A DNA stretch of 64,000 nt from Thermomonas flagellata (lineage in GTDB: Bacteria; Pseudomonadota; Gammaproteobacteria; Xanthomonadales; Xanthomonadaceae), in assembly GCF_022419185.1 (NCBI RefSeq), contig NZ_JAJOZK010000004.1, forward strand, positions 124,001 to 188,000, written 5' to 3'. Below the pieces are notes generated by a model. It had not been told where the DNA came from, did no database searches, and saw only the letters and a list, made by a program, of their open reading frames with translations. A program made the translations under genes and the position numbers. Below are positions 10,713-58,461 of this stretch, in pieces (the first letter of the stretch is position 1; every line of letters starts with the position of its first letter).

Positions 10713-12434
10713 TCAGTCCTTGGTGACGCGGTTGATCTCGGCCAGGCTGGTGATCCCCTGTTTCACCTTGTCCAACGCGGAACGCCGCAGGTCGCGGACC
10801 CCGCTGTCCAGCGCCGCCTGGCCGATCTGCTGCACATTACCACCGGCCAGCACGATGCGCTGGATCTCCTCGGTCATCGGCATCACCTGGTAGATGCCGA
10901 CCCGCCCCTTGTAGCCGTCGGTGCAGTCGGGGCAGCCGACCGGCTCGTACACCGTGATCCCGGCATGCACCTCGTCCGGGGTGAAGCCCTCCGCCAGCAG
11001 CGCGTGCTCGGGCAGGTGCACCGCGCGCTTGCAGTCGTGCAGGCGGCGCGCCAGCCGCTGCGCGATCACCAGCGTCACCGAGCTGGTGATGTTGTACGGG
11101 GCGATGCCCATGTTCATCAGGCGCGCGATGGTCTGCGGGGCGTCGTTGGTGTGCAGGGTGGACAGCACCATGTGGCCGGTCTGCGCGGCCTTCACGGCGA
11201 TTTCGGCGGTCTCCAGGTCGCGGATCTCGCCGACCATGATCACGTCCGGGTCCTGGCGCAGGAAGCTGCGCAGCGCGGCGGCGAAGGTCATGCCGCGCTT
11301 GGCGTTCTGCTGCACCTGATTGACGCCCGGCAGGCGGATCTCGACCGGGTCCTCGACCGTGCTGATGTTGCGGGTCTCGTCGTTGAGGATGCCGAGCGCG
11401 GTGTACAGGCTCACGGTCTTGCCCGAGCCGGTCGGGCCGGTGACCAACACCATGCCGTAGGGCTTGTGGATGGCCTCCAGGAACAGCCGCTGCTGCTCCG
11501 GCTCGTAGCCGAGCTTGTCGATGCCGAGCTTGGCCGCGCTGGCGTCCAGCACGCGCAGCACCACCTTCTCGCCGAACAGGGTCGGCAGGGTGCTCACGCG
11601 GAAGTCGATCTGCTTGGACTTGGACAGGTTGAGCTTGATGCGGCCGTCCTGCGGGACGCGCTTCTCGGCGATGTCCAGCTGTGCCATCACCTTCAGGCGC
11701 GCGGCGATGCGCGCGTTCAGCTTGACCGGGGCCTTTTTGGTGGTCTTGAGGATGCCGTCGATGCGGTAACGCACCCGGTACTCGGTCTCGTAGGGCTCGA
11801 AGTGGATGTCCGAGGCGCCCTTGCGAATCGCGTCCACCAGCACCTTGTTGACGAACTTGACCATCGGGGTGTCTTCGCCCTTGGCGTCCACCCCGGCGTC
11901 GCCGCCGAACTCGTCCTCGCCGCCGCTGACTTCCAGCCCTTCCAGCCCCTCGGCGTCGGCGAGGTCGTCGGCCAGCGCCTCGGCCGCTTCCTGCCACTGG
12001 TCGAGGCAGCGGCGGATGCGCTCGGCATCGACCAGGATGGGTTCCACCGCGAGGTTGGTGTGGAACTTGATCTCCTCCAGCGCGCGGTTGTCGGTCGGAT
12101 CGGCGGTGCCGATGAACAGGCGGTTGCCGCGCCGGAACAGCGGCAGCACGTTGTGCTTGCGCAGCAGGTCCTCCTTGACCAGGGCCATCGCGGTCTGCGC
12201 CGGGTCGATCTCGAGCGCATCCACCAGCGGCATCCCGAACTCGACCGCATTGGCCGCGGCCAGCGCCGCCGGCGGCACCAGCCGGCGCTCGGCGAGGTAT
12301 TGCGCCAGCGGGGTCTTCTCCGCCATCGCCGCGTCCATCGCACGGCGCGCGGCGGCCTCGTCCAGCGCGCCGTCCAGCACCAGGCGGCGGGCGATGCCGG
12401 TGATGCCCATGAGGTTGGGTGCAGTGGCTGCCAT
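10713..12434 (-). CDS. pilB: Type IV pilus assembly ATPase PilB
   Basis: Cytoplasmic hexameric ATPase powering pilus extension. The 573-residue protein has an N-terminal MshEN/GspE-N domain, the Walker A GPTGSGKTVSLY, Asp box (VEDPVEIRLPGVNQVQ), Walker B (DPDVIMVGEIRDLETAEIA), His box (GHMVLSTLHTNDA) and the zinc-binding Cys region (VGCPDCTDGYKG). The start MAATAPNLMG is preferred because GGGGAGG lies about nine bases upstream; the frame remains open well beyond it. The gene follows the sugar island on the same strand with a 76-bp gap, so it may have its own promoter or read through from the island. Confidence 0.96.
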   Translation of the reverse strand: MAATAPNLMGITGIARRLVLDGALDEAAARRAMDAAMAEKTPLAQYLAERRLVPPAALAAANAVEFGMPLVDALEIDPAQTAMALVKEDLLRKHNVLPLFRRGNRLFIGTADPTDNRALEEIKFHTNLAVEPILVDAERIRRCLDQWQEAAEALADDLADAEGLEGLEVSGGEDEFGGDAGVDAKGEDTPMVKFVNKVLVDAIRKGASDIHFEPYETEYRVRYRIDGILKTTKKAPVKLNARIAARLKVMAQLDIAEKRVPQDGRIKLNLSKSKQIDFRVSTLPTLFGEKVVLRVLDASAAKLGIDKLGYEPEQQRLFLEAIHKPYGMVLVTGPTGSGKTVSLYTALGILNDETRNISTVEDPVEIRLPGVNQVQQNAKRGMTFAAALRSFLRQDPDVIMVGEIRDLETAEIAVKAAQTGHMVLSTLHTNDAPQTIARLMNMGIAPYNITSSVTLVIAQRLARRLHDCKRAVHLPEHALLAEGFTPDEVHAGITVYEPVGCPDCTDGYKGRVGIYQVMPMTEEIQRIVLAGGNVQQIGQAALDSGVRDLRRSALDKVKQGITSLAEINRVTKD

Positions 12435-12510: not shown

Positions 12511-14436
12511 TCACGGAACCCCTCTGGGCGGGACGGCCGGGGTCGCGGCGAGGATATCCCGGCAGGCATACAGCCAGAACGTCCGCACCGGCGGGGTGGC
12601 GAGTGGGTCGCGGAACGACCAGGCCCCGCGGGCAGGCTGCGGCTGCCGGTACGGCAGGACCAGGTAATCGGGGGGCGGGCTGTCTGCGGACGGGGCACAG
12701 GCCTGCCGCATGGCGGCGTCGGAGATTTGGCATGGGGCAGGCGGCGAAGAATCGGCCGAGGACGCGGCAGCCAGCATGCAGCGGTCGGCCTCCTCGCGCA
12801 GCGGGCGCATCCGATCCATGCGTGCCCGTGCATCCTGCGCCGCCCCCGGGCTGAAGACCAGGCCGCTCAACTGTTGGGGGCTGTAGTAATCGGCGCGGTT
12901 GATGACCAGCCAGTTGGCCACCGAGCTGGCCTGCTCCCAATAGACCTGCGCCGATTCCGGCAGCACCGGGCCGAACAGTTCTGGCTGGAAGGAATGGGCC
13001 TCCAAGGCTCGGTGCAGCGCGGGGCGGGAGTCCCATCGCAGTCCGGCGTAGGCCGCGAACGGCAGCAGCAAAACCAGAAGCGCGGAGTGCACGACCCGGC
13101 CGGACCGCCGCCAGAGGGCACCCAAGCCGAGCACCACTGCCAAGGTCACGGCCGGGAAGGTGAACAGGGCGCGATCGAACGGGAAGGCCAGCAGTTGGAA
13201 CCGGGCCAGGCGGAATGCCTCCCGGATCTGGCCGAGGTAATCGAAGAAGACGAGGAGCACGGCCAGCGCTGCCGCACCGCCGAGCAGGACGCGCATGACG
13301 GGCCGCAGCCGAGGTTGCAGCCGTGGCCACCCAGCATAGACCAGCGCGACCGGCACCCAGGACCAGCCGGGCACGCCATAGGCCAGCGTGAGTGCCAGGG
13401 CGAGCAGGCCCAGGCGTGGCCAGTCACGGGCTGCGGTGTCGCGTTGCAGCAGTACGCCGATCCAGGCCATGGCAAACCAGTGCGCCAGCCAGTGCACACG
13501 CCAGAATTGCAGGCCGGCTGGCAGCGCCAGCCGCAGGACGTCGACCAGCACGAGATTTGCCAGCAGGGCCAATCCCAGGCCCAGGAGGGCCCCCATGCTC
13601 CAGCGCCGCGCATCCCCGGCGAACTGCCGCGCGGCATAGAGCAGTACCGCTGCATCGAAGCCCACGGCCTGCAGGTCGGCCGTGCGCCAGCGGTCGAGGA
13701 ACAGTTGCCCGGTCACTTCGTGTGCCAGTTGCTGCATGGCGGGATCCATGCGTAAGAACAGGCCGCTGAAGGGCCGGACGCCCACCAGCCCGAGCGCAGC
13801 GAGAATCGGCAATGCCCATAGCACATGCAGCCAACGCCGATCCCCCAGCAGCAGCCAGAGCCAGGCAATCAATACGGCGGCCAGGGCCTGCAGCGGGTGC
13901 AGCAGTGCCGCCAGCAGCAGGCAAGCGGCGGCGCGCGCCCAGTGGCGTCGCGTCAAGAGTGCGATCGCCAGCAGGCACAGTGGCTCGGCGTACAGGCGCG
14001 GCGTGAAGTAGGGCTCGGCGTAGCCGAAGATGCGGTAGGCGCCATAGGCAGTCGGCAGGCACAGCAGCGCCATCCACGGCAGCCAGCGCTGGCCCGATGG
14101 CAGCAGGCTGCGCAGCGCATACCAGCTGGCGGCGGCGAAGAACAGCAGCCCTACCGCCGTGCCCCACAGGAACAGGGCGCCGGCATCGATCCGATCCAGC
14201 GCCCACGCCACAAGATGCGGGAACAGGGTGTATTGGCCCTGGCTGCCATGCACGAAGAACAGGTCGCGGTCGAGGATGCCGGGCAGGCGTAGGCGCAACG
14301 CCTCACCCAGGTACAGCACGGCATCGTGGTCGATCCCGAAATACCCCTGGACCATGAACAGCAGGGTGAGACCCAGCAATGCGGCGGCGGCCACGGTCAA
14401 TGGATCGGGAGCGTGGCGAATGGTCGGGGCGTTCAT
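12511..14436 (-). CDS. Polytopic GT-C-like membrane protein A (tandem paralogue)
   Basis: I do not recognise a named family member. The 641-residue protein has roughly a dozen hydrophobic segments. It starts with a short cytoplasmic tail, a first TM helix and a conserved loop with GIDHDAVLYLGEALR and DRDLFFVHGSQGQYTLFP. Acidic residues in the first periplasmic loop are typical of lipid-dependent GT-C glycosyltransferases, so transfer of a sugar from a polyprenyl carrier is plausible. The C-terminal 180 residues form a soluble domain with several cysteines, ending in YLVLPYRQPQPARG and FWLYACRDI. It is clearly paralogous to the gene just upstream: same order of motifs, nearly the same length. 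The two overlap in ATGA. It is the last island gene before pilB. Confidence 0.75.
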   Translation of the reverse strand: MNAPTIRHAPDPLTVAAAALLGLTLLFMVQGYFGIDHDAVLYLGEALRLRLPGILDRDLFFVHGSQGQYTLFPHLVAWALDRIDAGALFLWGTAVGLLFFAAASWYALRSLLPSGQRWLPWMALLCLPTAYGAYRIFGYAEPYFTPRLYAEPLCLLAIALLTRRHWARAAACLLLAALLHPLQALAAVLIAWLWLLLGDRRWLHVLWALPILAALGLVGVRPFSGLFLRMDPAMQQLAHEVTGQLFLDRWRTADLQAVGFDAAVLLYAARQFAGDARRWSMGALLGLGLALLANLVLVDVLRLALPAGLQFWRVHWLAHWFAMAWIGVLLQRDTAARDWPRLGLLALALTLAYGVPGWSWVPVALVYAGWPRLQPRLRPVMRVLLGGAAALAVLLVFFDYLGQIREAFRLARFQLLAFPFDRALFTFPAVTLAVVLGLGALWRRSGRVVHSALLVLLLPFAAYAGLRWDSRPALHRALEAHSFQPELFGPVLPESAQVYWEQASSVANWLVINRADYYSPQQLSGLVFSPGAAQDARARMDRMRPLREEADRCMLAAASSADSSPPAPCQISDAAMRQACAPSADSPPPDYLVLPYRQPQPARGAWSFRDPLATPPVRTFWLYACRDILAATPAVPPRGVP

Positions 14437-16352
14437 TGAGGAGTATGCCTGTCCAGATCGGCCATGATCGCCGGGCAGGCATACAGCCAGAATTCCACTG
14501 CGGTCTCACCGGTTGCCGGGTCCTTCACTTGCCAATGCCCGAGCGGGGCCTGCGCTTGCCGGTACGGCAGGATCAGGAAATCCGGCGGTGCTGGAGTACC
14601 GGGTGCGCAGGCATGGCGCAAAGTGGCTTCGCTGATCCGGCAGTGTGCGCGCTCCTGCGCCGGCACCGAACGATCCTGGCAGTACATGTCCTCCTCGATC
14701 ACCGGGCGCATCCGTTCCAGGCGCAGGCGGCCCTCGCGCGGGGTTCCGCGGTTGAACACGGAGCCCGCCAGCTGCCAGGGGCTGAAGTAGTCCGCGCGCG
14801 TCAGCGTCGTCCACACCGCGGGGTAAAGCGGCGGGGCCCAGAACACTTGGGCGTGATGGGGCAGTGCTGTACCGAACAGGGCGGGGGCGGAGGCGTTCGC
14901 TTCCAGTGCGCGCGCGACCGGCGAGCGCGCGTCCCAGCGCCACAGGCCAGCCGCGAGCAGCAGCAGCGCCAATCCTGCCAGTAGCAGGTGTACGAAGCGG
15001 CTGGGGGTGGTCTGCCACAGCCACACGCCGAACAGGGGCAGGCCGAGTGCGAGCAATGGATAGGCCAGCAGGCGGCGGTCGAAGGCGTACCACTCCAGTT
15101 GGAAGTGCGCGATGCGGAATGGCAGCCATTCTTCTGCGATGTAGGCGGCCAGCAGGCCGAGCTGAGCGACCCAGGCCAGCATCCCTAGCGCGCGCCGGAA
15201 GCCGGGGCTCATGTGCGTGGAAAGCCATGGCCACACGGCATAAACGGCCAGGACCGGAATCCAGGCCCACAGGAAGCCGCTAGCCGCCATCGCCGCGGCC
15301 AGCGCCAGGATCGAAGCCCGCTCCCACTGGCGCGTGGACAGGTCGCGGTAGAGCAAAACGCCAACGGCCCCGTTGGTCAGCACCTGCCCCACCCACTGCA
15401 CCCGCCAGAGCTGCAGCGCGGTTGGCAACGCCAGTTGCAGCCAGTCTGCGAGTGCGAGGCTGGCACCCAGTCCGATCGCGATCGCCAGCAGGCCGGCACG
15501 GAACCCGCTGGCGATGCGGGGCTGCGCTCGCCAGTACACGACTGCCAGCGCGAGCATCGCGATCTCGAAGCCCAGCGCCGCCCAGTCCTGCGGGGTCCGC
15601 AGCGTGAGGTAAAGCTGGGGGGTGAAGTCGCTCAGGTCCTGGTGCCAGGCCGGATCGATCGCCCGGTACAGGCCGTCGAACGGCCGGATCCCGGTGAATC
15701 CGAGCAGCAGGATCGGCAGCCCGAGCCAGGCGAGGTGCAGCCAGCGGCGATCCTGCTGCACCAGCCACAGCCAGCCGAACAATGCACCCGCGATGGCCTG
15801 CAGCGGATGCAGCGTGGCCGCCAGCAGCACGCAGAGCCCCGCCAGCAGCACGCGGTTCCGGACCAGCCAGCCGAATGCAAACAGGCTTAGCGCCTCGGCC
15901 CATGGGCGCGAGGTCAGGAAGGGCTCCGCATAGCTGAAGACCCGGACCGTGCCGTAGGCGCTTGGCAGGCAGAGCACGGCCAGCCAGGCCCAATAGGCGC
16001 TTCCGCGCGGCAGCCAGCGGCCGAGCCAGAACCAGGCGGCGGCGGCGAAGGCAAGCAGGCCGAGCAGGCTGCCCGCCATGAAGATCGCCGGGAGGCTGGC
16101 CCAGGCATGCAGCCGCGCGACCAGTTCCGGCAGCAGGGTGTAGCTGTCCTGGCTGCCGTAGGCGAAGAACAAGTCGCGTCCGAAGATATCCGGATGCAGG
16201 CGATGCAGGGCCTGCCCGAGGTATAGCCCGCTGTCGTGGTTGATGCCGGGATAGCGTCGGATCAGCAGCAGCATGCCGATGCCGGTGGCGGCGGCTGCGG
16301 CGGCCTGCAACTGGCCAGGGTGCCCGGTCATGCGCGCTGCAGGCGTGGTCAT
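14433..16352 (-). CDS. Polytopic GT-C-like membrane protein B (tandem paralogue)
   Basis: Predicted inner-membrane, lipid-linked-sugar-dependent glycosyltransferase, by topology only. The 639-residue product shares with its neighbour the first-loop motif (GINHDSGLYLGQALH, GRDLFFAYGSQDSYTLLPEL), CLPSAYGTVRVFSYAEPF, HPLQAIAGALFGW, GIRPFDGLYR, LWRVQWV and the C-terminal tail (ILPYRQAQAPLGHW, FWLYACPAIM). About 12 TM helices precede a C-terminal soluble domain with cysteines. The start MTTPAARM is chosen for its AGGAA about 8 bases upstream and because it gives the same length as the paralogue; the frame runs open to 16676. A 295-bp gap, possibly holding a small ORF, separates it from the upstream gtrA-like gene. 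Confidence 0.75.
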   Translation of the reverse strand: MTTPAARMTGHPGQLQAAAAAATGIGMLLLIRRYPGINHDSGLYLGQALHRLHPDIFGRDLFFAYGSQDSYTLLPELVARLHAWASLPAIFMAGSLLGLLAFAAAAWFWLGRWLPRGSAYWAWLAVLCLPSAYGTVRVFSYAEPFLTSRPWAEALSLFAFGWLVRNRVLLAGLCVLLAATLHPLQAIAGALFGWLWLVQQDRRWLHLAWLGLPILLLGFTGIRPFDGLYRAIDPAWHQDLSDFTPQLYLTLRTPQDWAALGFEIAMLALAVVYWRAQPRIASGFRAGLLAIAIGLGASLALADWLQLALPTALQLWRVQWVGQVLTNGAVGVLLYRDLSTRQWERASILALAAAMAASGFLWAWIPVLAVYAVWPWLSTHMSPGFRRALGMLAWVAQLGLLAAYIAEEWLPFRIAHFQLEWYAFDRRLLAYPLLALGLPLFGVWLWQTTPSRFVHLLLAGLALLLLAAGLWRWDARSPVARALEANASAPALFGTALPHHAQVFWAPPLYPAVWTTLTRADYFSPWQLAGSVFNRGTPREGRLRLERMRPVIEEDMYCQDRSVPAQERAHCRISEATLRHACAPGTPAPPDFLILPYRQAQAPLGHWQVKDPATGETAVEFWLYACPAIMADLDRHTPQ

Positions 16353-16651
16353 GCGCGGTTCCTTGCCCACGGCAGAAAGCTGTCGCTGTGATCGCCGGCG
16401 CGACGGGGCCGCATGCACTGGCTGCTCTTGCTGATCGCGATGTTCTGGACTGATGCGCCAGGGACGCCGCTGCCGCCACGGGTCGCTGTCCGGGGCATGC
16501 CTGTCCCGGCGGCGCCGTGCGGTGGACGCAGGCAGGCCATCCCGAGCCGCCGGCCATCCACGGGGCGGCCTAATTCCATGTCCCGAGTGGTATGCCGGGT
16601 ATGCCGGCATGCGTGGGCCGCACAGCAGCGATCGGCAGCACCAGTGATCAT
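16349..16651 (-). CDS. Possible 100-residue ORF filling the gtrA / GT-C gap
   Basis: This ORF begins with an ATG that overlaps the stop of the upstream gtrA-like gene (ATGA) and ends in a TGA that overlaps the start of the downstream GT-C gene (ATGA). That exact fit at both ends suggests a translated or formerly translated gene in the operon. Against it, the predicted protein is rich in Arg, His, Cys and Gly, has no clear domain, signal or membrane helix, and could be random coding in GC-rich DNA or a decayed, frameshifted gene. No function is assigned. Confidence 0.25.
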   Translation of the reverse strand: MITGAADRCCAAHACRHTRHTTRDMELGRPVDGRRLGMACLRPPHGAAGTGMPRTATRGGSGVPGASVQNIAISKSSQCMRPRRAGDHSDSFLPWARNRA

Positions 16652-17187
16652 TGCTCACCTCGGTGTTCGCGGCCAACGGACTGGTGGCGCAGGAGGAAGG
16701 TGACGCGCCCGTGCAGCAGGTAGCTCAGAGGCGCATTGGCCAGGCTCAGGAGGATGCTCGCAGGGACTGGCCGAAGCCCTGCATATTCGACCAGTAGCAC
16801 CAGAGCCAGCGAGTTCATCGCCAGGCTGACCCCGGATACGCCGAAATAGCGCAGCAGGCCGCTGTGCAGGCCGACCCGGGTGGACGCGAACACCATCCGC
16901 CGCGAGGCGAGGTAGGCCACGGTGTTGATGCCGATGAAGATCGCGGCGAAGGCCAGCAGGTAGGGAATGCCCAGCAGGTCGACGGCGACGTAGAGCAGGG
17001 AGATGGAGAGCGCCGCAGACAGGCCACCGATCAGGACGAATCGCGTCAGACCGAGATGGAACAGTCCCCGCAGGTAGCCGTGGACGGATCCGGGTTGCCG
17101 CGGTGGCGATGCGATGCCGGTCGTGCGCGATGGGCGGCCATCACTTCCGGCCGGGTTGGAATGGCGCATGGGCAGATCGGGTTTCAT
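16648..17187 (-). CDS. GtrA-like membrane protein
   Basis: GtrA-family proteins are four-helix inner-membrane proteins thought to flip polyprenyl-phosphate-linked sugars. The 179-residue product has an N-terminal polar extension of about 45 residues, then four hydrophobic helices (TRFVLIGGLSAALSISLLYV, YLLAFAAIFIGINTVAYLAS, YFGVSGVSLAMNSLALVLLV, PASILLSLANAPLSYLLHGR) with the family pattern of a basic/aromatic loop (RRMVF) between helices 2 and 3. The ATG overlaps the stop of the preceding methyltransferase (ATGA), which implies translational coupling. It is one of two GtrA-like proteins in the island. Confidence 0.8.
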   Translation of the reverse strand: MKPDLPMRHSNPAGSDGRPSRTTGIASPPRQPGSVHGYLRGLFHLGLTRFVLIGGLSAALSISLLYVAVDLLGIPYLLAFAAIFIGINTVAYLASRRMVFASTRVGLHSGLLRYFGVSGVSLAMNSLALVLLVEYAGLRPVPASILLSLANAPLSYLLHGRVTFLLRHQSVGREHRGEQ

Positions 17188-17837
17188 GGGTGCGGCTGCA
17201 GGTTGCCCACGGCCCGGAACGCGAAAGCGTAGTTCGGGCGCTCGGTTGGCGCGAGCAGCGGTGCGGAGGCGTGCAGGCCGAGCCCGCGGAGCAGCCCGAC
17301 CAGATCGTCCGGAGCGATCAGTCGGACGTGGCGATCGCCGGTAATGTAACGGTCGGCATACATGCTCGCCAGCGACACCAGGTGGCCGGGTGCCACATCC
17401 TTGATGATCAAGGTCCCGCCCGGCTGCAGAAGACGCACACAGTCGTGCAGGAATGTGGTTCTCGCATCGGCCGGGACATGATGGACGACGTCGCTGACGA
17501 GGACGCAGGCGGCCGGCGCACCGCCCTGGGCCAGGTAGTCCTGGATGCTGGTGCCGGCGCGGATTTCCACGCGCGGTGCGATCTCGGGAGCCAAGAATTT
17601 GCCGACCTCGGTCTTGAGATCGAGCATGGTGGCGGTCAAGTCCGGGCGCACGCGGAGGATGGCATCGAGCACCGCACCATCGCCGCCGCCGACGTCAATC
17701 AGATGGCAGTCGGAAGAGATTGCGGCCTGCAGCTGTTGCGCGCACCGACCCACGTTCATGAACAGGGCGCGATAGGCATCGCAAAGTGGCCGCTCGAGGG
17801 GGCCGGCGAGCCCGCGGATGAAAGAGCCGACTGTCAT
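17184..17837 (-). CDS. Class I SAM-dependent methyltransferase
   Basis: A 217-residue Rossmann-fold methyltransferase. Motif I is CHLIDVGGGDGAVLDAIL near residue 48; later motifs are ATMLDLK (acidic residue that binds the SAM ribose), LVSDVVHHVPAD and LQPGGTLIIKDV. The substrate is unknown; from its place among sugar genes, methylation of a sugar or lipid-linked glycan is a reasonable guess, not a demonstration. The start MTVGSFIRG is chosen because AGGAC precedes it and it leaves an 8-bp gap to the upstream methyltransferase; the frame is open further upstream inside that gene. The stop overlaps the gtrA-like start. Confidence 0.8.
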   Translation of the reverse strand: MTVGSFIRGLAGPLERPLCDAYRALFMNVGRCAQQLQAAISSDCHLIDVGGGDGAVLDAILRVRPDLTATMLDLKTEVGKFLAPEIAPRVEIRAGTSIQDYLAQGGAPAACVLVSDVVHHVPADARTTFLHDCVRLLQPGGTLIIKDVAPGHLVSLASMYADRYITGDRHVRLIAPDDLVGLLRGLGLHASAPLLAPTERPNYAFAFRAVGNLQPHP

Positions 17838-17845
17838 GCGGTGTC

Positions 17846-18580
17846 CTAGACGTGGATGTCGACGATGTAACCGAAGCCCAGTGCAGGGACGATCCGCTCG
17901 AGTCCGCGGAGCGTTTTTTCGGCGATGATCGCGACCTGCCGTAATGGCGGTCGGCTGCGCAGGATCATTTCGGTGGCGAAGAACTGGTAGGGCAGGATCG
18001 TCCAGCCGGCAAAGCCGGCACGCACGCACAGCGTGTTCAATGTCTTGAAGGTGAAGACCTGCAAATGATCAGGATGCTGCACCTCGCGGCGCAGGATGCC
18101 GAGCAGGCAGTTCGGCAGACTGCAGCCGTTCGGCGTGGAGAGGATGAGGGATTTGCCGGGGTAATGGCGCTTGATCGACGTCAGGAACGCCAGCGGGCTA
18201 GGCAGGTGCTCGATGAACTCCCCGGCGACGATCACCTCCGGCGTGAATCCACCGGTTGCTGCCGGGCTGGGATCACTCGCGTCCGCACGGAGGATCCTTG
18301 CGTTGTCCGCGGTGCGTAGGCCGTCACTGGGCAGGCTTTCCGACAGGTCGAGCCCGAGCACTTCGGTGGCAACCGTGGCGATCCGCCCGTGTAGCCAGTG
18401 CTGGGTGTCGCGCTTGATCAGCGCGGTTTCGTCCAGGCAACCCAGGTCGAGTACGCGCCGCCCGCGGCAGCGCTCGGCGATATAAGCGATGCGATCCACG
18501 GGCGCGCGCACGGGCAGGCGCTCGAAATGGGTATAGCGCAATGTCCTGCTGTCCATCGGGCGGGCCTCGGCGTACGCCAT
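17846..18580 (-). CDS. Class I SAM-dependent methyltransferase (UbiG/Ubie-like)
   Basis: The 244-residue product has motif I in GRRVLDLGCLDETALI near residue 41, a ribose-binding acidic loop in VLGLDLSES, the motif VIVAGEFIEHLPSPLAFL (GEFIEHL is common in sugar and polysaccharide methyltransferases) and SLILSTPNG. A C-terminal extension of about 80 residues is hydrophobic in parts. It is unrelated in detail to the next methyltransferase, so the two probably modify different positions. Starts at 18580 or the later MDSRTLR are possible; the first lies one base beyond the stop of the preceding glycosyltransferase gene. Substrate not predictable. Confidence 0.8.
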   Translation of the reverse strand: MAYAEARPMDSRTLRYTHFERLPVRAPVDRIAYIAERCRGRRVLDLGCLDETALIKRDTQHWLHGRIATVATEVLGLDLSESLPSDGLRTADNARILRADASDPSPAATGGFTPEVIVAGEFIEHLPSPLAFLTSIKRHYPGKSLILSTPNGCSLPNCLLGILRREVQHPDHLQVFTFKTLNTLCVRAGFAGWTILPYQFFATEMILRSRPPLRQVAIIAEKTLRGLERIVPALGFGYIVDIHV

Positions 18581-18581
18581 G

Positions 18582-19373
18582 TCATTTCGAATAGGCTGGA
18601 TAACTGAAACGGTACAGCCCCATCAGCGCCCGGGCGACCGGTTTCGGCCATAGCTGCTCGAAGACAAGACGGTCCTCCCGTTCGCGAGCACCGTCCTGGA
18701 TGCAGTGCTGGGTTTCGCTGGCGGCATGCACCCGCCGCAATAGTAGATGCTTGCGAATCCTGAGCAGGGGGTGCTGCCTTGCAAGTTCGATCCAAGCCAG
18801 CCAGTCCATGTTGGTGCGCAGGTCCCGGCGGAAGCGGAAGTCCGGTGCGACTGCGCGGTTGAAGGTGACCGCGGCGCATAGGATGGGGTTACCGAATCCC
18901 AAGAGCAGGCGCCGGCGCAGGGCCCCATCGATCCGATCGCTGCCCAGGCTGGCGGCGCCCACCAGCGCCGACTTCACCCACTGGTTCAGCCGCCCGCGGC
19001 GCGGGCGGCCGTCTGCGAAGATTTCCCGTGCATCGCCGAAGGACAGCGCCACATCCGGATGCCGTGCATGGGCGGCGATTACCGCTGCCGCGAATTCCGG
19101 CAGGTACACGTCATCCTGGTGGACGATGGTCACCAGCGCGCAATCGGTGGCGGTCAGCGCGGCGTTCCAGTCGGCACCGATCCCGCCGCGATCGGCATGT
19201 ACGTGTAGCGCGGCCCCATGGCGGGCGGCGAGTTGGTGCAGGCCTGCGAACGGCGTTGAGGTGCTGATGACGAGCGGGGAGCGGACCTGCTGTGCATCCA
19301 GCGAGCGCAGGCAGTCCTCGAGGTGGGGCGAATGCCCATAGGCGGCGACGACGAAGGCATGCCGCAGCGACAT
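18582..19373 (-). CDS. Family 2 glycosyltransferase
   Basis: A 263-residue GT-A-fold glycosyltransferase. It opens with HAFVVAAYGHSPHLEDCLRSLDAQ, the nucleotide-binding strand-loop typical of GT2 enzymes, followed by GGIGADWNAAL and the metal-binding VTIVHQDDVYLPEFA near residue 90. It lacks obvious membrane helices, so it probably acts at the cytoplasmic face on a lipid-linked acceptor. The start MSLRHAFV overlaps the stop of the preceding GtrB-like gene (TGATG); longer in-frame starts have non-coding composition. Donor and acceptor sugars cannot be read from the sequence. Confidence 0.82.
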   Translation of the reverse strand: MSLRHAFVVAAYGHSPHLEDCLRSLDAQQVRSPLVISTSTPFAGLHQLAARHGAALHVHADRGGIGADWNAALTATDCALVTIVHQDDVYLPEFAAAVIAAHARHPDVALSFGDAREIFADGRPRRGRLNQWVKSALVGAASLGSDRIDGALRRRLLLGFGNPILCAAVTFNRAVAPDFRFRRDLRTNMDWLAWIELARQHPLLRIRKHLLLRRVHAASETQHCIQDGAREREDRLVFEQLWPKPVARALMGLYRFSYPAYSK

Positions 19374-20527
19374 CAGAGTGGTTTTGCCGGGATCAGGCGC
19401 AGCGCCTCGAAGAAGAAGCCGGCGAGCGCCAGTTCCCCACCCATGGCCATCGCGGTCACCGAGGGCACGACCCAACGCATCGTCGCCCGCGGATCGAGTG
19501 CACCGTAATCCACACCGGCCCACAGCTGCAGCGCGTGCAGCGCCATCCCCAGCCCGGCCAGGAACAGCAGGCCCCCGGCGATCAGCGCGTGTTCCAGGGT
19601 GAAGCGTGCTGCCCAGCGCTCCTGCCCCGCATCGACGGGCAACCATCCGGCGCGCATCCCCAGAAATTTCGTGAATGCCGCCAGCAGGAGCATCTGGAAT
19701 CCCAGGATCATGCCAGCCCCGGCATAGGCCATGGTGTGGATGTCGAGTGCGACCCGGTGTGCCGCAATCAGGGCCATGGCGACGCCGCCGGCCGCAAACA
19801 GGATGCTGCCGGGCAGCAGGTACAGCCAGCGCGGGCTATAAAGCAACAGGAATTTCAGATGCCGCCAGCCGTCGCGCCAGGTGCGCAGGTGCGGCGGGCG
19901 TGAACGCCCGTCGGGAGAGAGGGTGACCGGGACTTCGGCGATGCGCAACCCGTGCAACCCGCTCTTCACGATCATTTCGCTGGCGAATTCCATCCCCGGC
20001 GTGCGCAGGCCCAGGCGTGCGATCGCCGCCTTGTCGAAGCCGCGCAGCCCGCAGTGGAAGTCACCGACCGGGATCCGGTAGAACAGCCGGCCGAGGAAGC
20101 TCAGGACCGGATTACCGAGGTATTTGTGCAGGAAGGGCATCGCACCCTTGGCGATCCCGCCGCGGAAGCGGTTGCCCATCACCAGTTCATGCCCCTCGCG
20201 GAGCTTGCCCAGAATCCCGTCCAACCGGGAGAAGTCGTAGCTGTCGTCGGCATCGCCCATGATCACGTAACGCCCGCGCGCAGCCGCGATCCCACCGATC
20301 AGCGCGGCGCCGTAGCCGCGCTCGGCGACTGCGACGACGCGCGCGCCCTCCCGCTCGGCGATCGCCTGCGAGCCGTCGCTGCTGCCGTTGTCGGCGATCA
20401 AGACCTCCCCGTCCACCCCGGCGCGGGCGAGGAAGGATCGGGCCTTGCGGACGCAGGTCGCCAGCGTCTCCGCCTCGTTGAGGCAGGGCATCAGGATGGT
20501 CAGTTCGAGGCTGTCGTCAGTCTGCAT
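19373..20527 (-). CDS. GtrB/DPM-like polyprenyl-phosphate sugar synthase
   Basis: The 384-residue protein has an N-terminal GT2 domain (TILMPCLNEAETLATCVRKA; VLIADNGSSDGSQAIAE; metal site MGDADDSYDFSRLD near residue 94; VMGNRFRGGIAKGAMP; DFHCGLRGF) and a C-terminal block of about four TM helices from residue 225 on. This architecture matches dolichyl/undecaprenyl-phosphate glucose or mannose synthases, which load one sugar from a nucleotide donor onto undecaprenyl phosphate. With GtrA-like flippases and GT-C proteins nearby it completes the logic of a Gtr-type modification system. The start MQTDDSLELT overlaps the upstream gene by 11 bp. Confidence 0.85.
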   Translation of the reverse strand: MQTDDSLELTILMPCLNEAETLATCVRKARSFLARAGVDGEVLIADNGSSDGSQAIAEREGARVVAVAERGYGAALIGGIAAARGRYVIMGDADDSYDFSRLDGILGKLREGHELVMGNRFRGGIAKGAMPFLHKYLGNPVLSFLGRLFYRIPVGDFHCGLRGFDKAAIARLGLRTPGMEFASEMIVKSGLHGLRIAEVPVTLSPDGRSRPPHLRTWRDGWRHLKFLLLYSPRWLYLLPGSILFAAGGVAMALIAAHRVALDIHTMAYAGAGMILGFQMLLLAAFTKFLGMRAGWLPVDAGQERWAARFTLEHALIAGGLLFLAGLGMALHALQLWAGVDYGALDPRATMRWVVPSVTAMAMGGELALAGFFFEALRLIPAKPL

Positions 20528-22187
20528 GGGAGGGCGTGTCGCGGGCGGCGGGGGCAGACCAGGTGGCGCCGCGTTCATCCGCGTGCTGCAGCGTGGCGTT
20601 GGGCGCCAGCTTCCGCACCAGCGCGCGATCCGCGGCGAAGTCGGTACCGACCATGCGCAGTACGTGCCCGCGGTCGGCGGGATAGTTGCGCACCAGATCC
20701 ATCGTATACAGGTTGGGGCGGTCGGCGACGAAGACATAGGACATGCCGTCGCCAGAGACCGGTGGCTGCATCGCGATGGCTTCGGAAATCGTGGCGCGCG
20801 TCGTCCACAGGAAGACCGGGGTGGCCAGCAGGCCGGCGGTCAGCGCGACCGCCGGCAGCGCGATCTTGCCAGGTGTGGCGCGGATGGCGGCGACCGCGGT
20901 GGCCACCGGGATCAGTCCCCAGGCCGGGTGCAGGTAGCGGTAGCCCCAGCCGTGCCCCTGGTCGAACGGGATGAAAAAATAAAACGCGAACATCAGGGCG
21001 AACGCCGCTAGCAGCAGGCGTTCGATCGCCGAGGCCGGCCGCTGCAGGCAAGCCAGCAGCACCAGCCCGGGCGCCGTCCAGATCAGGGTTTTCCAGAGGG
21101 CGTAGGCGCGTACCGTCAGCAGCGCCGGGGTCGGCAGCACGAACAGGCCGCCCAGCTTGTGTGTCCATGCTTCGATGAGCGTCAGGTGCTCGGTACCGGT
21201 GGACGCTTGGCGCAGCCCCATGGCGTCGGTCGCCAGCACCCAGCCGAGCAGCAACACCAGCAGCAGGGGCAGGTAGCCGAGCACGAGCGCGGGAAGGCGC
21301 CGGCGGCGCTGCGCATCCCATGCCAGCCACAGCAGGACCGGCAGTGCGAACAGCGCGTGCGGGACCGGATTGTGCAGCACCAGCGCCAGGCTGCCGACGG
21401 CGCCGGCCAGTGCCGCCGACTTGTGACTTGGCCGCAGCGCCAGCCACAGGAACAGCAGGTTGAGGGTCAGCAGCCCCGGCATCGCGTAGTAGGACAGCGT
21501 ATTGACCGTGTACTGCGGGCTGGCCAGTGCCGCCAGCATCGCCCAGCCGCGGGCCTGCGGCTGGCGGCTGGCCTGCACGGCCAGATCGCCCAGCAGCCAC
21601 AGCCCAAGCGCCCCGAACAGCGGGTTGAGCAGCCACTCGCCGCCGAACAGCGCCAACGGCGCCATCAGCAGGGCCAACCCCGGCCAATAGGCGGACGCGG
21701 CCTGTCCGGTCGCCGGGTTGACCAGGATGAACCAGCCCTGGAAGCCCTTCGGTACGACCCGGTCGAGCAGCGTCGGCGGGTAGCGGATCGCCAGTTCCCC
21801 ATCGGCGAAGATCCGCGCCTGCAGCACCGGTGCGTATTCGTCCATGGCCAGCGGAAAGCCCTGATAGACGATGCGCGCCAGCAGCGCCAATCCCATGAAT
21901 GCGACCACGCTGCCTGCGACCGGATGGCATGACAATTCGTCGGCGAGTCGCGCCGCTGCACGCCGTAGGCTCGGGATCAGAAGCGCAGCCAGCAGCGCCA
22001 CCAGCATCGCAAGGCCGTTGCCGACGTCGTTGTAGAACAGCAGCCGGTAGTAGATCAGGTAGTCGTGTGCGCCGAGGCCGGGTAGCCGTCCTAGCCACAG
22101 AGCCACGGGCGCCAGCGCCGCCAGGACGACGGTCAATGTCAGCAGACCGCGCGGCTGCCGGGTGGCGGTCGGGGCCGTAGTTGTCAC
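20517..22187 (-). CDS. Polytopic GT-C-like (PMT/ArnT-type) membrane glycosyltransferase
   Basis: The 556-residue protein has about 11-12 TM helices and the first-loop pattern of GT39/ArnT-like enzymes: FPLAMDEYAPVLQARIFADGELAIRYPP, where the acidic DEY and the ARI-ADGEL segment are typical of lipid-sugar-dependent transferases. A C-terminal soluble tail of about 90 residues contains YVFVADRPNLYTMDLV. It is unrelated in its motifs to the tandem GT-C pair further down. A GTG at 22187, one base after the stop of the flavoprotein gene and with GGAG upstream, is preferred; an in-frame ATG at 22217 would add 10 residues. Acceptor unknown; the pilin or a lipid-linked glycan are candidates. Confidence 0.75.
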   Translation of the reverse strand: MTTTAPTATRQPRGLLTLTVVLAALAPVALWLGRLPGLGAHDYLIYYRLLFYNDVGNGLAMLVALLAALLIPSLRRAAARLADELSCHPVAGSVVAFMGLALLARIVYQGFPLAMDEYAPVLQARIFADGELAIRYPPTLLDRVVPKGFQGWFILVNPATGQAASAYWPGLALLMAPLALFGGEWLLNPLFGALGLWLLGDLAVQASRQPQARGWAMLAALASPQYTVNTLSYYAMPGLLTLNLLFLWLALRPSHKSAALAGAVGSLALVLHNPVPHALFALPVLLWLAWDAQRRRRLPALVLGYLPLLLVLLLGWVLATDAMGLRQASTGTEHLTLIEAWTHKLGGLFVLPTPALLTVRAYALWKTLIWTAPGLVLLACLQRPASAIERLLLAAFALMFAFYFFIPFDQGHGWGYRYLHPAWGLIPVATAVAAIRATPGKIALPAVALTAGLLATPVFLWTTRATISEAIAMQPPVSGDGMSYVFVADRPNLYTMDLVRNYPADRGHVLRMVGTDFAADRALVRKLAPNATLQHADERGATWSAPAARDTPSHAD

Positions 22188-22188
22188 G

Positions 22189-23727
22189 TCAGGACTTCTC
22201 CTCGTGGTACTCGTCATCCACGTTGATCGCCCAGATCGCGGCCTTGTCCACCTGGCCGCTGGCGATCTGCCGCGCCGCCTCGCGCGCGGTCAGCATGGAA
22301 TGGTCCTGGTTGTTGTAGCGGTGCATGCCGTTGCGGCCGATCAGGAACAGATTGGGGATGGCATCCAGCGCGGCTTGCAGCTCGCCGAAGCGGGCATAGG
22401 CCTCGCCGAAATAGCCGGGATAGGCTTTTGGCACGCGCAGCACGACCGCGTCCAGCGGACGGTCTGCTTGCACCAGGCCGATCTGCACCATTTCCCGGTG
22501 GGCCAGCGCCTGCAGCGCGGTATCGTCCATCCGCCACAGCGGATCCTGTTCCCGGCAGAAGAATTCCAGCCCCATCCAGACGGTGTCCGGGTCGGCGACC
22601 AGGTACGGGCTCCAGTTGTTGAAAACCTGCACCCGCCCGACGTTGACCCCGGGTTCCTGGATATAGATCCAGTTGTCTGCCAAGGGGCGCGGCAGCGCTG
22701 AGCGCGGATAGAGCAGGCCGACGGTGATGAAGTCGCGGTAGGACAGTCCGCGTGCGATCGCGTGCACCTCCGGCGGGAAGGCATCGCCGGCGGCGGCCAC
22801 CAGTTCCTGGATGGGCATGGTGGACAGCAGGTGCGTGCAGGGCAGGCGATGCTCCTGCCCATCGCGGTCGCGGTAGCGCACGGCGGCCACACGTCCGTCT
22901 TCCAGTTCGATCGCGGTGGCCCGGCTCTGCATCAGCAACCGTCCGCCCTGGGCCTGGAAACGGCGGGCCGCGGTTTCCCACATCTGGCCCGGGCCGTATT
23001 TGGGATACAGGAAGCTTTCGATCAGCGAGGTCTGCTCGGCCTTGCCGCCCAATCCGAGCATTTTCTTCAGGGCATGAGCGATGGCCTTGGTGACCGACAG
23101 GCTCTTGATCCGCTGCGCGCCCCAGGCCGCGCTGATCTCGCTGCAAGGCACGCCCCAGACCTTCTCGGTGTATTCCTTGAAGAACTGCCGGTACAGGCGC
23201 TGGCCGAAGCGGTTGATCAGGAAATCCTCGAGCGAGGCTTCCGGCTTGCGCGGGCGCAGGCGCGCCCAGACGTAGCTCAGCCCGAAGGTGAAGGTCTTCC
23301 ACGGCCCGAGCTTGAGCAGGGTGTCCGGATTGAGCTTGAGCGGATAGTCGAAGAAGCGGCGGTTGAAGTAGATGCGCGACAGCCGGCTGCGCACCAGCAG
23401 CACATCATGGTCGGATTCAGAGGCGGTGCCGGCCGGTACGTCGGCACTCGCGCCCTGGTAGCGCAGTTCGCGCGCCGCGGCGGGATCGGCGGGGGCCGCC
23501 ACCGGCAGCAATGCCCGCCACCAGTCCATCACCCAGTCGGATTTGGAGAAGAAGCGGTGGCCGCCGATATCGATGCGGTTGCCGTGGTGGACGACAGTGC
23601 GCGAGATGCCGCCGACCTGGGTGTCGGCCTCGAGCACGGTGACATCGTGGATGCCGGCGGCTTGCAGTTCGAGCGCGGCGGTCAGGCCGGCCGGGCCGGC
23701 GCCGATGATGACGACGGCAGGGGTCAA
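22189..23727 (-). CDS. FAD-dependent oxidoreductase, UGM/HemY-like
   Basis: A 512-residue flavoprotein with an N-terminal Rossmann dinucleotide motif ([21 protein letters not shown]), then [15 protein letters not shown] and [15 protein letters not shown]. The GGHRFF signature is shared with UDP-galactopyranose mutase and COG1232 enzymes. Later are [21 protein letters not shown] and a C-terminal FAD motif ([20 protein letters not shown]). At 512 residues it is longer than classical UGM (about 370-390), so it may be a sugar or lipid oxidoreductase rather than a mutase. It probably prepares an unusual sugar for the island. The start is TTG, overlapping the gtrA-like stop in TTGA with GGAG eight bases upstream. 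Confidence 0.8.
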
Positions 23728-24149
23728 GCAGCGGTCTCCGGGGCGGTCGCGAAGCGGCGGCGGGCGAACAGCAGGCTGCGGCGGACGCCGTAGTTGAAGG
23801 CGAAGGTGACCACTGCCGCGGCCAGCTTGACCGCTTCCGGAAGCAGGTGCAGCTCGGTCACGCCGACCCACAGTACGGCCTGGGTGACGCCGAGGCCGGC
23901 GATCCCGATCGCGACGAACCCGAGGAACTCCAGCGCCGGCACACGCGCGAAGGCGCGCTCGCGGAACACCCAGCGGATGCTCAGCCAGTAGGCGACCACA
24001 GCGCCGACCACGAACCCCAGGGTCGCCGACCAGGCCAGGCTCAGCCCGAACAGGCGCAGGCTGGCCGACAGCGTCGCGGTGTCGGCGATGAGCGCCAGCA
24101 GCGAGGCCAGGAAGTAGCGCAGCAGTTCGGCGGGCAGGCGGCGGGTCAT
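23724..24149 (-). CDS. GtrA-like membrane protein (second copy)
   Basis: The 141-residue protein is almost entirely four hydrophobic helices ([80 protein letters not shown]) and carries the family loop RWVFRER after helix 2 and a basic C-terminus. GtrA proteins are proposed flippases for polyprenyl-phosphate sugars. It is the first gene of the island, 88 bp after the second pilin, with no strong terminator between, so it could be transcribed with that pilin. It differs from the 179-residue GtrA-like protein at 16.6-17.2 kb, so two lipid-linked donors may be handled. Confidence 0.82.
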
Positions 24150-24237: not shown

Positions 24238-24594
24238 TCAGACCGAGGGCGTCAACGAGCAGTTGGTGGTATCGGCCTTGCAGATGGTCGAGGCGGTGCC
24301 GGGGGCGCGGGGCGTGAAGGTGATGGTCGCACCGCTGGCCACCGCCGCCGAGTCGATGGTGCCGGTCATCGAGGCGCAGGCCCTGTTGGCCGGCGCCGGG
24401 AAGCCCGAGTACTGCCCGATCACCGCCGCCACCGCCTGGTTCATGTAGGCCTTGGCCTCCGCGTTGCAGGCGCCCTCGGCGGCGCGGATGCGGTAGTTGT
24501 TGTAGGCCGGCAGCGCGATGGCGGCCAGGATGGCGATGATCGCGACCACGATCATCAGTTCGATCAGGGTGAAGCCGCGGTTGCGTGCGTGCAT
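24238..24594 (-). CDS. pilA: Type IV major pilin, copy 2
   Basis: Type IVa prepilin of 118 residues. The short basic leader MHARNRG is followed by the PilD cleavage site [11 protein letters not shown], with Glu at mature position 5, and a 25-residue hydrophobic helix that anchors the subunit. The C-terminal half has four cysteines; the last two (ICKADTTNC) form the expected D-region loop, and the tail SLTPSV is Ser/Thr-rich. The first 50 or so codons are almost identical at DNA level to the adjacent pilin. The start ATG has GGAGGGGG nearby, and a sigma-54 promoter motif lies about 45 bp upstream. Whether both pilins are major subunits cannot be told from sequence. Confidence 0.93.
24484..24577 (-). 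repeat. 94-bp identical block, pilin copy 2
   Basis: This stretch coding for the prepilin cleavage site, hydrophobic helix and start of the globular domain is base-for-base identical to 25033-25126 in the neighbouring pilin. Synonymous sites are identical too, while the flanking codons differ. Confidence 0.9.
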
Positions 24595-24733: not shown

Positions 24734-24763
24734 AAAAAAGAACCCCTCGCGAGGAGGGGTTCT
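24734..24763 (-). terminator. Rho-independent terminator of the first pilin
   Basis: Read on the minus strand, a 10-bp perfect stem AGAACCCCTC/GAGGGGTTCT with a 5-base loop is followed by a run of T (the plus strand shows AAAAAA). It starts about 23 bases after the stop of the upstream pilin and separates it from the second pilin. Confidence 0.92.
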
Positions 24764-24786: not shown

Positions 24787-25140
24787 TTAGACCGACGGGG
24801 TCATCGAGCAGGTGGCGGAATCCGCCTGGCAGACGGTCGAGGCCACGCCCGGCGACTTCGGGGTGAAGCTGATCGTCGCGCTGCTGGTCACCTGGGCCGA
24901 GGTCAGGGCCGCGGTCGGCGCGGTGCAGGCCTTGGCCGGCGGGGCCGGGATGGTGGAGAACTGCGAGACCACCGCGGCCACGGCCGAGTTCATGTAGGCC
25001 TTGGCCTCGGCCTGGCAGGCGCCCTCGGCCGAGCGGATGCGGTAGTTGTTGTAGGCCGGCAGCGCGATGGCGGCCAGGATGGCGATGATCGCGACCACGA
25101 TCATCAGTTCGATCAGGGTGAAGCCGGACTGCTTCTTCAT
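24787..25140 (-). CDS. pilA: Type IV major pilin, copy 1
   Basis: Type IVa prepilin of 117 residues with leader MKKQSG, cleavage site [11 protein letters not shown] and mature Glu5, then an alpha-1 helix identical to that of the second pilin ([11 protein letters not shown]). Four cysteines; the distal pair VCQADSATC closes the D-region loop before the tail SMTPSV. A strong GGGGAG precedes the ATG. It has its own terminator and its own sigma-54 promoter, the better of the two motifs, so it is likely the main PilR-controlled pilin. A longer in-frame start at 25179 exists but would add an unlikely leader. Confidence 0.95.
25033..25126 (-). repeat. 94-bp identical block, pilin copy 1
   Basis: Identical to 24484-24577 in the tandem pilin; covers the prepilin cleavage site and hydrophobic helix. 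Confidence 0.9.
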
Positions 25141-57270: not shown

Positions 57271-57679
57271 GCCGTTCCGCTGGCCGGCGCGGGTGTACTG
57301 GGAGGACACCGACGCCGGCGGCGTGGTCTACCACGCCCGCTACCTGGCCTTCCTGGAGCGCGCGCGCAGCGAGTGGATGCGCGCGCTCGGGCTCGGCCAG
57401 GAGGCGCTGCGCCGCGAGCACGACCTGGTGTTCGCGGTGCACGCGATGGACCTGCGCTTCCACGCCCCGGCGCGGCTGGACGATCAGCTTGCGGTCAGTG
57501 TGCGCCTGCTGGAATGCGGCGGCGCCAGCCTCGCGCTGGCGCAGCAGGTCGAGCGCGCGGGGCAGGCGCTGGTCGCGGCGGGGGTGAGGATCGCCGCGCT
57601 GCGCGCCTCCAGCTTCCGGCCGTGCCCGATCCCGCGCCCGCTGCGGGCGCTGTTGCAACCCCTGGTGGAGACCCCCTGA
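57263..57679 (+). CDS. ybgC: Acyl-CoA thioesterase YbgC (Tol-Pal associated)
   Basis: Hot-dog-fold thioesterase of 138 residues. It has the active-site Asp in [28 protein letters not shown] near residue 15, the family signature. Genes of this type head the tol-pal operon. The start overlaps ruvB by 8 bp and the stop overlaps tolQ (TGATG), so ruvB, ybgC and tolQ are probably translated from a common message. Confidence 0.95.
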
Positions 57680-58461
57680 TGTCGCTGTCGCTGCTGCAAT
57701 CGCTGCCCCAGGCCCTGCCCGAGCCGGACGCGGCGCACGCCACCGCGCTGGCCGGCGATGCCGCCGCCCCCGCCGCCGCGCACGCCCAGAGCCTGGACAT
57801 CCTGCAGCTGGTGCTGCACGCCAGCCTGCCGGTGCAGCTGGTGATGGCGCTGCTGCTGCTGGCCTCGCTGGCGTCGTGGGTCATCATCTTCCGCAAGAAG
57901 CGCGTGCTCGACCGCGCCGAGCGCGAGGCCGACCGCTTCGAGGAGACGTTCTGGTCCGGGGTCGAGCTGCCCAAGCTGTACGCCGCCGCCAGCGAGCGCA
58001 ACCGCAGCATCGAGGGGCTGGAGGCGATCTTCGAGGGCGGCATGCGCGAGTTCAACCGCATCCGCCAGCGCCGCGGGGTGGACGCGCGGATGCAGCTGGA
58101 GGGCGCGCAGCGGGCGATGCGCGCGGCCGCCTCGCGCGAGCTGGACGGGCTGGAGCGCAACCTCGAGTTCCTCGCCAACGTCGGCTCGATCAGCCCCTAC
58201 GTCGGCCTGTTCGGCACCGTATGGGGGATCATGATCTCGTTCCAGGGCCTGGCCAACGTCAAGGAGGCGACCATCGCCACCGTCGCCCCGGGCATCTCCG
58301 AGGCGCTGGTCGCCACCGCGATGGGCCTGTTCGCGGCGATCCCGGCGGTGTGGGCCTACAACCGCTTCGCCACCCGCACCGAGCGGATGGCGGTGCGCTA
58401 CGACACCTTCAGCGAGGAATTCGCCTCGATCCTGCAGCGCCAGGCGCACCTGGACGACTGA
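57679..58461 (+). CDS. tolQ: Tol-Pal system inner-membrane protein TolQ
   Basis: Proton-channel subunit of 260 residues in the TolQ-TolR motor that energises TolA and supports outer-membrane constriction at division. It has an extended N-terminus (about 45 residues), then TM1 (LVMALLLLASLASWVIIF), a cytoplasmic loop and TM2/TM3 (LANVGSISPYVGLFGTVWGIM; ISEALVATAMGLFAAIPAVWA) with the conserved FGTVWGIM and ATAMGLFAAIPAV motifs. The start overlaps the ybgC stop. Confidence 0.95.
   Translation: MSLSLLQSLPQALPEPDAAHATALAGDAAAPAAAHAQSLDILQLVLHASLPVQLVMALLLLASLASWVIIFRKKRVLDRAEREADRFEETFWSGVELPKLYAAASERNRSIEGLEAIFEGGMREFNRIRQRRGVDARMQLEGAQRAMRAAASRELDGLERNLEFLANVGSISPYVGLFGTVWGIMISFQGLANVKEATIATVAPGISEALVATAMGLFAAIPAVWAYNRFATRTERMAVRYDTFSEEFASILQRQAHLDD

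Follow-up and report, generated by a model that had tools for sequence, protein, structure and literature searches.

A modular island between pilA and pilB of Thermomonas flagellata: a probable pilin-glycosylation locus with a UDP-galactopyranose mutase homologue in its core

Oligosaccharyltransferases of the TfpO/PglL type bear a Wzy_C (PF04932) domain, and the TfpW gene lies directly after pilA and is accompanied by DprE/UbiA-type partner genes for arabinofuranose. Three-component Gtr systems consist of GtrA, GtrB and a GT-C protein, and such sets modify the O-antigen in enteric bacteria; the mycobacterial AftA/Emb enzymes have the GtrA partner Rv3789, a furanose donor and the cell-wall arabinogalactan as acceptor. 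According to the parts of PMC11841053 available to us, the Pseudomonas pilin glycosyltransferases TfpO and TfpW, unrelated to each other, add O-antigen units and arabinofuranose, respectively, and protect from pilus phages. Here, we analyzed a stretch of 64,000 nucleotides (the window) from the 2.5 Mb genome of Thermomonas flagellata, in which the interval between the pilin gene pilA2 (24238-24594) and pilB (10713-12434) holds ten genes on the minus strand, g1 to g10. We consider it fairly probable that this island serves the glycosylation of pilin and is modular and horizontally mobile. Its core, a GT-C protein, a GtrA-type protein and a homologue of UDP-galactopyranose mutase (UGM), would transfer a lipid-linked, galactofuranose-like sugar to pilin. 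Pilin glycosylation as such is likely, and a galactofuranose-type sugar is plausible. From the observed genes, families, predicted folds, recurring order and linkage to pilin, we infer the substrate, the lipid carrier, the acceptor and the chemical steps. The features of the locus are the following:

24787-25140, minus strand: pilA1, type IV pilin (117 aa), presumed acceptor
24238-24594, minus strand: pilA2, type IV pilin (118 aa), presumed acceptor; ends 88 bases ahead of g1
23724-24149, minus strand: g1, small GtrA-type membrane protein, core, presumed lipid-linked-sugar flippase (PF04138, E = 2.2e-17); adjoins g2 in other cassettes
22189-23727, minus strand: g2, flavoprotein of the PRK07208 kind, UGM homologue, core
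20517-22217, minus strand: g3, polytopic, weakly LA_3751/LA_3752 glycosyltransferase-like, accessory
19373-20527, minus strand: g4, GT2 with C-terminal membrane helices, GtrB/AglJ-like, accessory (GT2, E = 1e-22; 61% in Ramlibacter L052)
18582-19373, minus strand: g5, weak GT2, accessory (Pfam, 20.1 bits vs. cut-off 23.3)
17846-18580, minus strand: g6, S-adenosylmethionine-dependent methyltransferase, accessory (PF13489, E = 9e-11)
17184-17837, minus strand: g7, S-adenosylmethionine-dependent methyltransferase, accessory (PF00891, E = 6e-10)
16648-17187, minus strand: g8, second GtrA-type protein, accessory (PF04138, E = 2.4e-15)
14433-16352, minus strand: g9, GT-C-family protein, core, presumed pilin glycosyltransferase
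12511-14436, minus strand: g10, GT-C protein, core, tandem paralogue of g9 (GT-C neighbours of the predicted structure)
10713-12434, minus strand: pilB, far border of the variable interval

The position of the ten genes inside the pilus locus and most of their classes had been proposed in a preliminary description of the window and were borne out by the domain scan: two GtrA-like proteins (g1 and g8, PF04138 at E-values of 2e-17 and 2e-15), a GtrB/DPM-like synthase with a second GT2 (g4 and the sub-threshold g5), two methyltransferases (g6 and g7) and a UGM/HemY-like flavoprotein (g2, a flavin adenine dinucleotide (FAD) oxidoreductase). The number of three polytopic GT-C-like proteins also stood, with g9 and g10 being paralogues (43% identical) and g3 of a separate kind. 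In the scan of the ten island proteins, g3 and g9 were without a Pfam match and g10 had a sub-threshold match only; no Pfam family applies to g9 or g10. The NCBIfam likeness of g3 to LA_3751/LA_3752 was weak (41 bits vs. a cut-off of 200). Most genes had been said to overlap by 1-11 bases and to act as one unit. Six of the nine junctions are indeed overlaps, but these measure 1, 4, 4, 4, 11 and 29 bases (the last at g2/g3), and the other three are gaps of 1, 8 and 295 bases. Because the 295-base gap between g8 and g9 splits the island and other junctions have gaps as well, a single unit is not proven.

The g9/g10 family also occurs in other genomes. One scan of a named-genome collection with two peptide patterns, far from exhaustive, yielded 15 loci. 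Draws with a richer profile brought in G332 and G440, members being present (own genome included) in 2 of the 369 genomes drawn from the class and in 5 of the 247 drawn from the taxonomic family. Once duplicates were taken out, 18 genomes remained, own included. The g9/g10 family sits in a pilin locus (pilA and/or pilB) in 16 of them, and the loci of the other two (L053 and L048, the latter probably G021) are cut by contig ends; no member was seen away from a pilin locus among the 18 genomes, one of which (L045) shows pilB only. The carriers span Lysobacterales, Thiothrix, Rhodocyclaceae and Burkholderiales. Because related cassettes adjoin pilin genes in such distant bacteria, the comparison lends good support to pilin as the target, as had been suggested before.

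Thiothrix, Rhodocyclaceae, two Roseateles, a Burkholderiales metagenome-assembled genome and Ramlibacter L052 share the gene order pilin, GT-C, GtrA, flavoprotein, and in L052 relatives of g3 and g4 come next after the flavoprotein. In L054, the pilin, GT-C and GtrA genes are followed by another GT-C gene, which is cut. In the smallest cassette (G440), the gap between pilA and pilB contains the GT-C, GtrA and FAD genes alone. Four genomes (own, G005, G008 and G022) have GtrA after the last pilin, with g1-g2 on the pilA side and the GT-C pair on the pilB side, whereas a GT-C gene comes after the last pilin in 11 others. The middle of the island differs between G022 and the window. A core role of g3 was rejected, its relatives having been seen only in the window, G008, G022 and Ramlibacter L052. 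The same applies to g4, because G005, G020, G022, G440 and G332 gave only weak generic GT2 matches and no close relative. With the smallest cassette lacking a GT2, the loading by a GtrB-like enzyme that had been proposed earlier is not supported as a fixed step. The best reading is that GT-C (g9/g10), GtrA (g1) and the flavoprotein (g2) form the recurring core and g3-g8 are variable decoration genes. In the assembly of Thermomonas sp. S9 (L001, L043), several island genes contain frameshifts or stops, perhaps sequencing errors.

Compared with the known systems, the cassette resembles TfpW of P. aeruginosa group IV, a GT-C pilin glycosyltransferase adding D-arabinofuranose, in having GT-C proteins with a predicted furanose, and the predicted role of its GT-C proteins is like that of TfpO of group I, a pilin glycosyltransferase among pilin accessory proteins (PMC11841053, in part). 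Set beside TfpW by description, the cassette differs by the UGM homologue and GtrA in its core and by GT-C genes that are often paired. Neither DprE- nor UbiA-type partners, as known for TfpW, are present among the ten island proteins. The earlier statement that this is not the TfpO arrangement was correct, since none of the ten proteins carries a Wzy_C domain; the two Wzy_C matches of the genome lie elsewhere, on contig C7 and on contig C3, and the window is part of contig C15. All three component types of the Gtr system are present in the window, but the GtrB partner (g4 in the window and in L052) is not part of the recurring core, which instead contains the UGM homologue and is linked to pilin genes. 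The mycobacterial AftA/Emb enzymes have the GT-C fold in common with the g10 model, and the GtrA partner and furanose donor in common with the proposed system, with arabinogalactan rather than the presumed pilin as acceptor.

The g10 structure was predicted with a pLDDT of 90 and is a GT-C membrane fold with a periplasmic C-terminal domain, whose nearest folds are oligosaccharyltransferases and ArnT. This agrees with the earlier proposal of a GT-C transfer protein; a sequence search of the PDB with our first GT-C profile gave no matches. In the alignment of the family, D58 is invariant in 21 rows and D38 is kept in at least 90% (the stretch is absent from one row). We take an acidic residue that is conserved in the first loop on the periplasmic side to be a catalytic-type feature of GT-C enzymes, and both the topology and the catalytic role of D58 and D38 are predictions.

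To place the island in its genomic context, we took the DNA upstream of pilB at 40 places (19 in the genus containing Thermomonas, 10 in other genera of the family and 11 in other families of the order; two were extended), a pilB-like match being present in 59 of 60 genomes, own included and paralogues counted in. The pilA-pilB gap was readable in 18 genomes of the genus, own included; those left out were G010 and G017, whose contigs end before pilA, and G004, G006, G014, G021 and G023 with a partial or weak pilB place. Five of these 18 gaps contain the g9/g10 family (own, G005, G008, G020 and G022), 12 another family and one (G013) neither. Of the 25 genomes of the genus, 6 have relatives of g10, which lie in the gap in five of them and on a contig end in the sixth (G021). 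Members of the other family are polytopic, measure about 620 residues and are encoded immediately after the pilins (e.g. L002:7281-9137, L006:6481-8376, L015:5749-7611); of the 16 members aligned, 4 match TPR_19 and one matches PMT weakly. Perhaps they represent a second family of pilin glycosyltransferases. Kinship of the two families was rejected by a profile comparison (probability of 1.9%). The other gap islands inspected contain glycosyltransferase, sugar-nucleotide and methyltransferase genes. Within the genus, the pilA-pilB gap is an insertion hot spot. At 9 of the 21 places beyond it, a pilA match lies no farther than 500 bases from pilB.

The cassette is also associated with the type of pilin. 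Comparing the pilins without their conserved N-terminus, we obtained a mean identity of 61% among the five carriers in the genus (10 pairs) vs. 45% between these and the genomes with the other family (60 pairs), whereas the pilB N-terminus, used as yardstick, gave 80% vs. 78%. Label shuffles, which ignore relatedness, yielded p = 0.0006, also after regression on pilB, and the difference persisted without the pair of own genome and G008 (0.58 vs. 0.44). Among genomes with the 620-residue family, pilin identity is not raised (46%, 66 pairs), which confines the link to the g9/g10 family. The likeness may come from co-transfer rather than from function. Gene numbers correspond as well: all 7 genomes with a single pilin have a single GT-C (L049 being open at the left edge), and 7 of the 8 with at least two pilins have at least two GT-Cs; several of the genomes counted are close kin. 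L045, L048 and L053, where no pilin is visible, were not counted, and the four listed pieces of G020 were taken as three genes, one of them split across two loci.

The flavoprotein g2 (likely start codon TTG at 23727) scored 696 bits vs. a cut-off of 418 with PRK07208 of NCBIfam and resembles eukaryotic-type UGM in sequence and in its predicted FAD-binding UGM fold, at only 19-21% identity to the respective structures. We compared eight positions of AfUGM named in PDB titles (H63, F66, Y104, Q107, R182, N207, Y317 and R327), which we assume to have active-site roles. All ten sequences compared preserve six of them, among these the histidine and the two arginines. Weighing against a mutase, Q107 is replaced by lysine and N207 by isoleucine in all ten. 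The fold search gave nearly as good scores for related flavoprotein oxidases, the best protoporphyrinogen oxidase ranking fifth. GalE genes are located between the cassette and pilB in two loci (L076:12777-13760 and L044:13792-14784), and the own genome has one GalE above the cut-off, on a different contig. We read g2 as a UGM homologue with a predicted mutase activity. Seven of the eight non-own matches of g2 in the class draw lack pil genes nearby, within the stretches fetched. In one locus (L078:10191-13562), where no pil gene is visible, GtrA and PMT_2 proteins are encoded next to a g2 relative; this arrangement suggests that GtrA, a UGM-like flavoprotein and a GT-C protein may be a more general unit. 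A plasmid search with most of g2 retrieved two records with 59-base matches only.

In the proposed pathway, the GalE encoded elsewhere in the genome would provide UDP-galactose, which g2 would convert by ring contraction to a galactofuranose-like sugar. A GT2 enzyme would load this sugar onto undecaprenyl phosphate, GtrA would flip the lipid-linked sugar to the periplasm, and the GT-C enzyme would hand it to pilin; perhaps each of the two paralogues is devoted to one pilin. The exchangeable g3-g8 would build or methylate further sugars. Because the flavoprotein of the recurring core is a UGM homologue, a furanose is a better first guess than the methylated sugar assumed in the preliminary description. 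A more specific version, to which we give a rather low probability, is a pilin galactofuranosylation system in which a dedicated UGM-kind mutase, whose substrate may be a lipid-linked sugar, supplies a GtrA flippase and a Pfam-less GT-C enzyme. This unit would move with its pilin between beta- and gammaproteobacteria and be one of at least two interchangeable gap islands, perhaps driven by pilus-binding phages.

Alternatively, pilin might be glycosylated with an ordinary pyranose, and g2 might catalyze other redox chemistry, e.g. oxidation or epimerization of a lipid-linked sugar in the manner of DprE1. The low identity to UGM, the two missing residues, the protoporphyrinogen oxidases among the fold matches and the PRK07208 relatives in other settings, once adjoining GtrA and a PMT_2 protein, would all fit; the six invariant positions and the GalE genes adjoining two cassettes argue for the mutase, and we regard the pyranose as rather unlikely. 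It is quite improbable that the island serves an O-antigen or exopolysaccharide and was placed among pil genes merely through the insertion hot spot. Such a role would suit the enteric GtrA/GtrB/GT-C sets, but the core follows the pilin gene in Thiothrix, Rhodocyclaceae and Burkholderiales although the remaining locus is different, the carriers' pilins are alike, and the genome's Wzy_C proteins are encoded on other contigs. A divergent TfpW system would share the logic of a GT-C pilin transferase with a furanose sugar, as described for Pseudomonas group IV pilins in the parts of PMC11841053 at hand. We consider this very doubtful: the UGM homologue and GalE point to galactose, and the island lacks the DprE/UbiA-type genes. 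An anti-phage defence system was rejected, as PADLOC gave weak matches to g2 and g7 only.

Transfer of the island, which had been suggested from a lower GC content at third codon positions (GC3) than in its neighbours, is further indicated by its patchy distribution and the pilin resemblance among carriers. The GC3 of the ten genes is 0.78-0.93 vs. 0.95-0.97 in pilB, pilC, pilR and pilS and 0.96-0.98 in the pilins of the window. Low values are not confined to the island, as a few other mechanically chosen open reading frames of the window show them too (e.g. 57373-58461 at 0.85). A drop was also observed in the cassettes of G440 (0.60-0.69 vs. 0.81-0.94) and G332 (0.57-0.71 vs. 0.88 in pilB), but not in that of Roseateles L056 (0.76-0.90 vs. 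0.77 for its pilin). A terminator-like stem of 10 pairs with a T run is located 3' of pilA1, between pilA1 and pilA2 (24739-24763, minus strand), while no such site was listed between pilA2 and g1 in a scan finding 8 sites vs. 4.7 expected; pilA2 may therefore share a transcript with the island. The promoter scan found none.

Variability and transfer of pilA in Xanthomonas have been published (PMC4235730, PMC4584326), and the parts of these papers available to us do not mention glycan genes beside pilA. Pilin types and modification islands may travel together, which we suggest as a cause of this variability. In the literature searched, mainly titles and abstract openings, we recognized no description of a GtrA/UGM/GT-C pilin cassette. 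The system would represent a compact third pilin cassette beside TfpO and TfpW, with three genes in its smallest form and a sugar predictable from its enzymes, and would make pilin glycans of environmental bacteria testable by one intact-mass measurement.

Beyond the preliminary description, we observed other glycan-type islands in the pilA-pilB gap of most readable genomes of the genus. In many loci with the 620-residue family, a GT2 gene on the opposite strand, about 28-30% identical to g4, borders pilB as a recurring end of the variable island (L002:725-1591, L006:18352-19215, L012:1371-2225). Several gaps encode a large protein, about 1000 residues long and rich in membrane helices (L005:541-3606, L012:12767-15766, L016:13392-16421), and the L005 copy carries a spermidine-synthase domain.
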